Numbered from the stretch's first letter, positions 28,251 to 33,563 are shown. The stretch: DNA of 52,136 nucleotides from Chloroflexota bacterium (GCA_024277995.1 JAJRUD010000147.1:1-52136); one strand, 5' to 3'. The notes: generated from the letters alone by a model not told the origin. Numbers and translations are program-made.

Positions 28251-28931
28251 ATGACTGATCGACTGATCCTGACCCTGGGAATACTGGGCGGCACGGGCAA
28301 GGAAGGTTCGGGCCTGGCCTATCGCTGGGCCAAGGCGGGCTATCACATCATCATCGGCTCTCGCACGCTGGAGAAGGCGCAGCGCGCCGCGCAGGCCGTG
28401 AACGAGCGGCTGGGGCGCGAGGTGGCGGCGGGCATGCTCAACGAGGACGCGGCGCGTCTGTGCGACATCGCCGTGCTCACCGTTCCCTACAGTGCCCACC
28501 GCGCCACGCTCGAGGCCTTGAAAGACAAGCTGCAGGGCAAGGTGCTCGTGGACGTGACCGTGCCGCTCAAACCACCGGAAGTGTGGGTGGTGAACGTACC
28601 CGAAGCGGGAAGCGCCAGCATGGAGGCGCAGCAGATCCTGGGCGAAGGCGTCCAGGTGGTGGCCGCGTTCCAGAACATCTCCCACGAACATCTGCTGGAT
28701 GACCACCCGGTCCCCTGCGATGTCCTGGTCTGTGGGAATAGCGAGGCGGCCCGCGAGCAGGTGCTGCAGCTGGCGGCGGCCGCCGATCTCACCGGGTGGG
28801 ACGCCGGCCCACTGCAGAACGCGGTGGTTGCCGAAGGGTTGACCAGCGTCCTGATCGGGATCAACCGGCGCTACAAGATGCGCGGCGCCGGCATACGCAT
28901 CACGGGCGAACAGCAGCCGCCTGTAGATTGA
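28251..28931 (+). CDS. npdG: NADPH-dependent F420 reductase
   Basis: The 226-residue protein opens with LGILGGTGKEGSGLAYRWAKAGYHIIIGSR, the NADP-binding Rossmann motif of the F420:NADP+ oxidoreductase family. VDVTVPL and VVAAFQNISHEHLLD are further conserved parts. It exchanges hydride between NADPH and F420. ATG 28251 follows GGAGAG; the frame extends 14 codons upstream without a better start. It directly follows ssnA and opens the F420 gene set, so it probably supplies F420H2 to the local reductases or recovers NADPH from it. Confidence 0.92.
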   Translation: MTDRLILTLGILGGTGKEGSGLAYRWAKAGYHIIIGSRTLEKAQRAAQAVNERLGREVAAGMLNEDAARLCDIAVLTVPYSAHRATLEALKDKLQGKVLVDVTVPLKPPEVWVVNVPEAGSASMEAQQILGEGVQVVAAFQNISHEHLLDDHPVPCDVLVCGNSEAAREQVLQLAAAADLTGWDAGPLQNAVVAEGLTSVLIGINRRYKMRGAGIRITGEQQPPVD

Positions 28932-28941
28932 CGTTCACGCC

Positions 28942-29706
28942 ATGGCCGCCAGCATGAGCCTCACCGCGCTGCCGGGGTTCCCCAGAATCCGTCCGGGGGA
29001 TGACCTGGCAGCCCTCATCCTGGAGGGGCTCGAGGCGGCCGCGCTGCGCCTGGAGGCGGGCGACGTGATCGTCGTCGCTCAGAAGGTGGTCTCCAAGGCC
29101 GAAGGGCGGCTGGTGGACCTGCAGGACGTCACCCCTTCAGCGCCGGCCCACGAGCTGGCTGAGCGGGCGGAGAAGGATCCGCGCCTTGTCGAGCTCATCC
29201 TGCTCGAGAGCCGCGAGGTGCTGCGCGTCCGGCCCGGCCTGATCATCGTCGAACACCGCCTGGGCTTCGTCTGCGCCAACGCCGGCATCGACCATTCCAA
29301 CGTCGACCAGGCTGCAGGGGAACGGGTGCTGTTGCTGCCGGAGGACCCCGATGCCTCCGCCCGGCGGCTGCGTGATCGGCTGGAGGCGGCCTGCGGCGTC
29401 CGACCGGCTGTGCTCATCATCGACTCGCACGGCCGGGCCTGGCGCATGGGCACCGTCGGCGTGGCGATCGGCGTGGCCGGGCTCCCAGCGTTGTTGGACC
29501 TGCGCGGCAGGCCGGATCTCTTCGGGCGCAGGTTGCAGGTGACGCAGGTGGGATTGGCCGACGAGGTGGCTGCAGCCGCCTCGTTGTTGATGGGGCAGGC
29601 GGACGAAGGGTGTCCGGTGGTCCATCTGCGCGGCCTGCGCTATCCGCCGCACGACGGGTCGCTGGCGGAACTGCTGCGCCCGCGCGAGTTGGACCTGTTT
29701 CGCTGA
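28942..29706 (+). CDS. cofE: Coenzyme F420-0:L-glutamate ligase
   Basis: The 254-residue protein matches CofE and the N-terminal domain of FbiB: LEAGDVIVVAQKVVSKAEGR near residue 38, PGLIIVEHRLGFVCANAGIDHSNVD (about 94-118), and IIDSHGRAWRMGTVGVAIGVAG. It adds glutamates to F420-0 in a GTP-dependent reaction. It lies 10 bases after npdG. The nitroreductase domain that is fused to it in mycobacterial FbiB is encoded separately at 30372-30983. Confidence 0.92.
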   Translation: MAASMSLTALPGFPRIRPGDDLAALILEGLEAAALRLEAGDVIVVAQKVVSKAEGRLVDLQDVTPSAPAHELAERAEKDPRLVELILLESREVLRVRPGLIIVEHRLGFVCANAGIDHSNVDQAAGERVLLLPEDPDASARRLRDRLEAACGVRPAVLIIDSHGRAWRMGTVGVAIGVAGLPALLDLRGRPDLFGRRLQVTQVGLADEVAAAASLLMGQADEGCPVVHLRGLRYPPHDGSLAELLRPRELDLFR

Positions 29707-29835
29707 TGCCGACCCTGCAGGTCGTGGGCCGAGGTTGGTGCAGCAGCGGTATGATTAGGGATGTGCAGGGTGCCGGCGAGAGCCAGCCCCCGGCCGCTCA
29801 CAGGAGAGCGACATTGCCCTGTGCAGCAGAGAGAC

Positions 29836-31927: not shown

Positions 31928-32553
31928 CCATCTGGGCGATCGTGCCTGTCAAGCCCCTGAACCGTGCCAAGTCTCGTCTGGCCCCGGTACTGACGCGCGA
32001 GCAGCGCGCCAGGTTGAGCCGGCGGCTGCTCGTGAATACGCTGGACGTGCTGGCGAAGGTGCCGGCCATTGAGCACACGCTCGTCGTCAGCCGCGATTCG
32101 AGCGCGCTGGCACTGGCGCGCAAGCACGGGGCGCGCACGGTGACCGAGCGCGGCAAGCCGCGCCTGGACCGGGCGTTGATCCGGGCCACGCTCGTGGCGC
32201 AGGGATACGGGGTCTCAGCGGTGCTCGTGCTGCCGGCGGACCTGCCCCTGATCACCGCCGAGGCCATCGAGGACTTCATCGCCCACGCCAAGGAAGCCCC
32301 GATCGTGGTGCTGGCGCCCGACCATCACGGCACGGGCACCAACGCTTTGTTGTCGGCGCCTCCCGGCCTCATCGAGTATGAATTCGGCCCGGACAGTTTC
32401 CACCGCCATCTGGCGCGCGCTCAGGAAAGCGGCGTGCGCGTGGAGGTTTGCAGCTTGCCTTCAGTGGCCCTGGACCTCGACAATCCGGAGGACCTGGAGC
32501 AGTTGGGCGCAGAATGGCGGGAAGCGATTGTCAATTCAACCGAGAGGGAGTAA
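31924..32553 (+). CDS. cofC: 2-phospho-L-lactate/phosphoenolpyruvate guanylyltransferase
   Basis: The 209-residue protein starts at GTG overlapping the cofD stop. It has [20 protein letters not shown] at the N-terminus and [15 protein letters not shown] (about 100-115), the CofC pattern of the nucleotidyltransferase fold. It activates the phosphorylated C3 acid with GTP for CofD. With cofE, cofD and the nitroreductase, every late F420 step is encoded here. The FO synthase gene (fbiC or cofG/cofH) is not in the window. Confidence 0.94.
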
Positions 32554-32558
32554 GGGAT

Positions 32559-33563
32559 ATGCAGCGAGTTGCACTTTACCTACAGGATGCCCACGACCTG
32601 CGCGACGGCCTGGAGTACGCCCGTTACGCAGAAGCCAAGGGTTTCGAGGCCGTCTGGCAGGCGGAATCGCGGCTGGTGCGCGACGCCATCGTCCCCATGG
32701 CCGCCTACGCCGCGGTAACGGAGCGCATCAAGATCGGCTCGGGTGTCATCAACAACTGGACGCGCAACATCGGCCTGCTGGCGGCCACCTTCCTGACGCT
32801 GGACGATCTGGCGCCCGATCGCATCATCTGCGGTATAGGTGCCTGGTGGGACCCGCTGGCCAAGAACGTGGGCATCGAGCGCCGCAAGCCGCTCAAGGCC
32901 ATGCGCGAGACGGTGGAGGTCTTGCGCCGCTTGCTGAACATGGAGCGCGTCACCTTCCACGGCGAATTCCATCACGTGGACGGGATCGAGCTGGACGTGG
33001 TTCACGGGCGGCGCGAGCCGCGCAATGTGCCCATCTATATCGGCGCCACCGGCCCGAAGATGATGGAACTGACGGGTGAGATCGCCGACGGCGCGGTGCT
33101 CAACTACTGTGTGCCGCCGGAGTACAACGATCAGGCCCTGGAGCGTCTGGAAGCCGGTGCGCGGCGCGCCGGCCGCAAGCTGGAGGACATCGACCGCCCG
33201 CAACTGGTGGTGTGCTCGGTGGACGAGGACCACGATCGGGCCATCGATACCAGCCGCGGGCTGCTGACGCAATACCTGGCCCAACAGCCGCACATCGCCA
33301 AGGCCAGCGGCGTCTCCCAGGACGTCGTGGCCGAGATTCAATCCATCCTGGGCTGGCCGGCCACCCACGAGCAGATCCAGCAGGCGAAACACCTGGTGCC
33401 GGAGGATCTGGTGCTGCGCATCACCGCTTCCGGCACGCCGCAAGAGGCGCGCGCCAAGGTGCAGGAGTACATCGATCACGGAGCCACTTGCCCCATCCTG
33501 TACCCCGTGGGCGGCGACGTCAAGCTCCTGATCGATACCTTCAGTCCGCAGGGCAAGGCGTAG
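32559..33563 (+). CDS. LLM-class F420-dependent oxidoreductase
   Basis: The 334-residue protein is a luciferase-like monooxygenase-fold (TIM-barrel) enzyme: [51 protein letters not shown], and [25 protein letters not shown] are typical of its F420-dependent branch (methylenetetrahydromethanopterin reductase-like). The ATG at 32559 follows AGAGGGAG. It lies five bases after cofC. Its substrate is unknown. Given the neighbours it is the leading candidate for an F420H2-dependent step on a purine-derived compound, but this is inference. Confidence 0.88.

Follow-up and report, generated by a model that had tools for sequence, protein, structure and literature searches.

A coenzyme F420 module within a purine cluster of Chloroflexota: a candidate F420H2-dependent substitute for YgfK and a missing FO synthase

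The window, as the whole stretch of 52,136 nucleotides analysed here is called, is contig 110 of 272 in a Chloroflexota metagenome assembly (3.36 Mb, 86% complete) whose close relatives are filed under Anaerolineales and Anaerolineaceae. Between positions 26851 and 37806 its + strand carries, in this order, ssnA, npdG, cofE, a PPOX gene, an FbiB-like nitroreductase gene, cofD, cofC, a gene for a luciferase-like protein (LLM), a thioesterase gene and ygfM-like and xdhD-like genes (Table 1). Gene calls were checked against NCBIfam and Pfam with curated cut-offs, which all of these genes exceed except those for the nitroreductase, LLM, YgfM and XdhD. The calls bear out the order from NpdG to LLM after ssnA that had been given in the original prediction, and three of its several 4-base overlaps are real (30372/30375, 30980/30983 and 31924/31927). 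The run had also been described as unbroken up to the second XDH-type enzyme of the window, which is the YgfM-XdhD pair; the order holds, but about 250 bases separate cofE from the PPOX gene and a hotdog thioesterase gene sits between LLM and the pair. The true start of the xdhD-like gene is probably near 34800. Elsewhere in the window lie hyuA, a ygeW-like gene, carbamate kinase and adenine deaminase genes, a BMP-type ABC transporter, two more XDH-type enzymes and yqeB/yqeC-mocA. A Nudix_N-type gene immediately 5' of ssnA has the same place in several relatives (L112, L113, L119, L121, L138), and a DUF6909 gene within the third XDH cluster is kept in some (L145, L182, L135).

Table 1. Genes of the window discussed in the text, with predicted roles and the matches behind them
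Gene and predicted role	Position	Strand	Evidence
ygeW-like carbamoyltransferase	689..1669	+	35% to E. coli YgeW; under YgeW family cut-off, closer to ornithine-type models
carbamate kinase (yqeA-like)	1686..2642	+	TIGR00746 above cut-off; 50% to E. coli YqeA
PALP-family (PLP) enzyme, 491 aa	12345..13820		
hyuA, D-hydantoinase	20783..22204	+	TIGR02033 529 bits, above cut-off; 38% to E. coli HyuA
Nudix_N-type gene	26528..26845		
ssnA, amidohydrolase opening reduced ring	26851..28212	+	NCBIfam NF005540 523 bits, cut-off 444; 35% identity to E. coli SsnA
npdG/fno, NADPH:F420 oxidoreductase recycling F420H2	28251..28931	+	TIGR01915 214.6 bits, cut-off 149.8
cofE, F420-0:glutamate ligase	28942..29706	+	TIGR01916 289.7 bits, cut-off 180.65
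PPOX-class (FDOR-B type) F420-related protein, optional member	29959..30375	+	TIGR03618 105.6 bits, cut-off 79.05
FbiB C-terminal-like nitroreductase, possible dehydro-F420 reductase, optional member	30372..30983	+	TIGR03553 163.5 bits, under cut-off 249.55
cofD, FO:phospholactate (or PEP-type) transferase	30980..31927	+	TIGR01819 321.2 bits, cut-off 257.45; PDB 3c3d E 7e-66
cofC, guanylyltransferase	31924..32553	+	TIGR03552 173 bits, cut-off 105
LLM (luciferase-like hydride transferase), candidate F420H2-dependent yanthine reductase	32559..33563	+	Pfam PF00296 E 3.7e-69; PDB Mer E 1e-37; Foldseek best match Mer with F420; ssnA co-occurrence
hotdog-fold thioesterase-like protein, frequent neighbour	33573..34058	+	TIGR00369 above cut-off
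ygfM-like FAD subunit	34067..34810	+	best E. coli match YgfM, 29%; TIGR03312 64 bits, under cut-off
xdhD-like Mo/Fe-S subunit, probable urate to yanthine reductase	34735..37806 (open frame)	+	37% identity over 1032 columns to E. coli XdhD; TIGR03313 712.8 bits, under cut-off
DUF6909 protein	41887..43650		Pfam 740 bits
yqeB and yqeC-mocA fusion, Mo cofactor / Se maturation	45879..48043	+	TIGR03309 and TIGR03172 above cut-off

Anaerobic breakage of the purine ring needs a difficult reduction, and to our knowledge two enzymes are known to carry it out, YgfK and UacX. In the reductive uric acid pathway of E. coli (xdhD-ygfM, ygfK, ssnA, hyuA, ygeW, ygeX, ygeY), as given in the part of Li et al. 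2025 (PMC12507026) consulted here, XdhD converts urate reductively into yanthine, whose ring is then reduced by YgfK and hydrolysed by SsnA; YgfK alone yielded no product. How much of this is encoded in the window? Homologues of XdhD, YgfM, SsnA, HyuA, carbamate kinase, YqeB and YqeC are present along with a YgeW-like protein and, judged by homology, the window corresponds almost completely to the uricolytic region of E. coli, apart from ygfK, ygeX and ygeY. Among the genes by which a reductive uricolytic cluster is recognised, XdhD with YgfM and SsnA with HyuA were found, YgfK/UacX and YgeY/YgeX were not. In E. coli, ygfK-ssnA-ygfM-xdhD are contiguous, whereas in the window the F420 module and LLM occupy the stretch between ssnA and ygfM-xdhD. 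YgeY reaches at best 30 bits in the window genome, and comparison with the E. coli proteins gave no match to YgeX within the window. In other families of Chloroflexota the PALP-family enzyme turns up again beside ssnA, ygeW or carbamate kinase, and it is a possible stand-in for YgeX, the diaminopropionate lyase. A profile search of the window genome (86% complete) found no YgfK above cut-off (best 258 bits, cut-off 835), and the matches elsewhere in the genome cover the GltD-like C-terminal part only. The original prediction of an F420 module inside an anaerobic purine cluster without YgfK withstands this search. A non-orthologous YgfK replacement next to SsnA exists in UacX of C. difficile, a PydA-like FMN enzyme of the DHO_dh family that is thought to use ferredoxin and is not a luciferase-like protein. 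The contig of the window holds no DHO_dh (UacX-like) gene.

Is the arrangement a peculiarity of this genome? The order ssnA-npdG-cofE-(PPOX)-(nitroreductase)-cofD-cofC-LLM, on a single strand, recurs in 66 of 66 Chloroflexota loci that have both ssnA and LLM (a few of these loci being one genome entered twice), so that the arrangement is real, conserved across Anaerolineales and far beyond what chance would give. The original prediction thereby also survives the second of its own two tests, that of conservation in relatives. None of the 66 loci lacks npdG, cofE or cofC, 59 have cofD, and across the conserved loci LLM has a mean identity of 84% against 50-60% for the cof genes. The nitroreductase gene is found in 27 loci and the PPOX gene in 23. 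PPOX, which had been put forward together with LLM as the possible F420H2-dependent reductase, is therefore rejected as the common ring reductase, and LLM is the common candidate. In seven loci (L149, L151, L154, L155, L156, L182 and one other) the operon reads ssnA-npdG-cofE-cofC-LLM, with no cofD. In some genomes a second, divergent SsnA paralogue (42-46% identity) adjoins LLM (L060:6885-8213, L061, L063, L123, L129, L162).

The association extends beyond the operon. In a sample of 301 Chloroflexota genomes, LLM orthologues are present in 43 and SsnA in 51, and 40 genomes have both, linked or unlinked; the resulting 40/43 (Fisher 4.6e-36) is a genome-level value that ignores shared ancestry. 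Counted by genus, 24 of 27 with LLM also have ssnA (Fisher 1.8e-20), and by family 12 of 14. Outside the order of the window, 17 genomes share LLM and ssnA (Fisher 1.6e-17, again ignoring shared ancestry), with LLM, ssnA and cofD mostly far apart or on separate contigs. An unlinked LLM is often still near xdh, hyuA, ygeW or carbamate kinase (G240, G088, G208, G139, G131, G016, G026), and in several families the neighbours of LLM include xdh, hyuA, ygeW and carbamate kinase genes but no cof gene. All 43 LLM genomes carry cofD. Could the F420 genes nevertheless owe their place beside ssnA to chance or to operon hitch-hiking, and work for other F420-using enzymes in the cell? Of the 301 genomes, 191 carry cofD, most of them without the purine-operon LLM; one genome of the same order (G232, locus L076) keeps the npdG-cofE-nitroreductase-cofD-cofC module with its Nudix and thioesterase neighbours and has neither ssnA nor LLM; and most genomes encode a second LLM (PF00296) protein, which is unlinked and was for that reason set aside as a partner in the purine role. 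G072 and G290 have no PF00296 protein besides the operon LLM. With the order fixed in every locus that has both ends, and with a relative (G176) that keeps SsnA together with YgfK though it lacks LLM, cofD and any PF00296 protein, hitch-hiking is very unlikely.

The same relative introduces the evidence from gene replacement. G176 is a single-contig genome from the order of the window, and it combines SsnA with a full-length YgfK (1334 bits). In G227, which lacks LLM, a DHO_dh gene lies directly 3' of ssnA, and in G222, G260 and G267, likewise without LLM, DHO_dh genes lie 6-9 kb from ssnA; no DHO_dh gene was found beside ssnA in any of 15 LLM genomes checked. Taken together, SsnA appears with LLM, with YgfK or with a UacX-like enzyme, and this replacement in relatives points to LLM as a putative YgfK substitute. 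The partition is incomplete, since five SsnA genomes (G192, G019, G015, G002, G044) have neither LLM nor YgfK nor a linked DHO_dh gene; a further exception is G212, an incomplete genome from a genus in which other members have LLM. Nor is there strict mutual exclusion of LLM and YgfK: G139, a distant member of the phylum (L105/L106), has LLM together with a full YgfK in one purine cluster of a single contig, and G131 holds LLM with an N-terminal piece of YgfK, both without a canonical SsnA. G139 fits a different reading, in which LLM would use F420H2 on another compound of the purine pathway, for instance some other oxopurine or an intermediate whose ring is already open, and something else would dearomatise the ring. 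So does an extra gene of about 830 aa that lies between or beside cofC, LLM and the second SsnA in a few clusters (L145:7412-9904, L060:8295-10793, L123:3528-6032, L129:5564-8065). Its product has a GltD-like FAD domain, a middle part of about 370 aa to which Pfam assigns no domain and a C-terminal ferredoxin domain; it was considered as a split YgfK, for which Pfam gave no DHO_dh match, and it may act as a partner in electron transfer or as a further reductase. Most LLM clusters, however, contain no other dearomatising candidate, and the fact that YgfK in G176, and DHO_dh genes in the four other relatives, replace LLM one for one is hard to reconcile with a different substrate, which we consider unlikely.

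Is LLM an F420 enzyme at all? It belongs to the Bac_luciferase family (Pfam PF00296), its best NCBIfam match is Mer, the F420-dependent methylene-tetrahydromethanopterin reductase, and its nearest PDB relatives by sequence (Mer, Fgd and Adf) are all F420 enzymes. When an AlphaFold2 model of LLM (pLDDT 81.8) was used in Foldseek, Mer with F420 was the best match and the first 23 matches were all F420-dependent enzymes. Mer is thus closest in both sequence and fold, at about 28% identity, which is what one would expect if LLM were a Mer-like methylene-tetrahydrofolate reductase supplying one-carbon units, with an indirect link to purines. Yet LLM falls under the cut-offs of both Mer models (169 against 348.7 bits and 175.8 against 276 bits). 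In the alignment the TDH/SDH motif of Mer- and Fgd-type enzymes reads AES in LLM, and Glu6 of Mer corresponds, with an alignment offset of +1, to Tyr7, which is invariant in 21 sequences. By these sequence features LLM is not predicted to be Mer and, given its strong co-occurrence with ssnA even where the two are unlinked, a one-carbon role seems highly improbable. The same replacements mean that F420 binding by LLM has to be argued from family and context, from which we infer that LLM probably uses F420.

What, then, would the operon do? In the scheme that we favour, and regard as fairly probable, LLM is an F420H2-dependent yanthine reductase that feeds SsnA in place of YgfK or UacX, with its cofactor finished from FO by CofC, CofD and CofE and recycled by NpdG. 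The XdhD-YgfM pair would deliver yanthine (2,8-dioxopurine), NpdG would pass the electrons of NADPH to F420, and LLM, as a hydride transferase, would dearomatise yanthine; we infer this substrate, and the reductive direction, from the company that the gene keeps. SsnA would open the reduced ring, and HyuA and the YgeW-type carbamoyltransferase would follow, with ATP made by carbamate kinase. LLM would in this way occupy the position of YgfK in E. coli and of UacX in C. difficile, and FO, for which these genomes encode no known synthesis enzyme, would probably be taken from the surroundings. The original prediction had placed ring reduction before HyuA; the scheme in PMC12507026, as far as consulted, couples reduction to SsnA and has HyuA act later, so the sequence of events stands and the immediate partner changes. 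Nor is the use of F420 a new idea, as had been thought. From gene neighbourhoods (PF00296 near SsnA), and without a test, the same paper had already proposed an F420-dependent yanthine reductase of the luciferase family for Chloroflexota, that is, the same protein family, phylum and role as LLM here. An F420-LLM role in purine breakdown is likely, and the original interpretation is partly supported, with the enzymatic role of LLM putative. As far as consulted, the main text of PMC12507026 reports the LLM neighbour only and does not discuss F420 biosynthesis genes; what is added here are the genes for F420 biosynthesis and recycling, the replacement test, Chloroflexota that bear YgfK or DHO_dh, and the absence of an FO synthase. 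Its statement that Chloroflexota are without YgfK and UacX needs refining in view of the YgfK or DHO_dh genes in G176, G139, G227, G222, G260 and G267. According to PMC8498797, no role of F420 in bacteria outside Actinobacteria has been studied experimentally. If the scheme is right, F420H2 would provide a third chemistry for purine-ring reduction and F420 would gain a new physiological role in such bacteria. The operon joins cofactor, recycler, reductase and partner hydrolase, which makes the proposal directly testable.

FO, the head group of F420, is made by CofG/CofH or FbiC. The original prediction had overlooked that these enzymes are missing, which is the freshest part of the findings. 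Neither CofH (at E 1e-3) nor CofG (at 1e-5) was found in the window genome (G000) or in its single-contig relatives G005 and G112, and CofG/CofH/FbiC are absent from the window genome and from 24 others sampled from its order, these two included; genomes of known F420 makers gave matches in the same searches. A CofG/CofH pair is encoded in a single one of the 43 LLM genomes, G088, and in none of those that carry the operon. The F420 module of the window is therefore the second half of the pathway only. This sets it apart from the F420 biosynthesis known from bacteria and archaea (CofC/D/E, FbiB; PMC8498797), which it resembles in having CofC, CofD and CofE above cut-off together with NpdG; in all studied producers FO is made by the two radical-SAM domains CofG/CofH (PMC8498797). 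A literature search found no report of this gap for Anaerolineales, the nearest remark being that three named Chloroflexi hosts are without FO synthase genes (PMC9178010).

Where does the FO come from? With the synthase absent, either import or an unknown enzyme must supply it. Diffusive loss of FO from cells has been discussed (PMC8498797), and yeast equipped with CofC, CofD and FbiB turns FO supplied in its medium into F420 (PMC10949242), so that FO uptake by these bacteria is plausible, the alternative being an unknown FO synthase. With a little less confidence than in the role of LLM, we lean towards the view that in Anaerolineales, and probably in much of Chloroflexota, one step of purine breakdown depends on F420 and only the second half of F420 biosynthesis is kept, with FO supplied by neighbours (methanogens or other producers) or by an undescribed enzyme. 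If confirmed, the missing FO synthase would mean either that microbes exchange FO much as they do vitamins or that an unknown FO synthase exists, and the gap would concern far more than the order of the window: 152 of the 191 cofD-bearing Chloroflexota genomes sampled are without a CofH-grade match.
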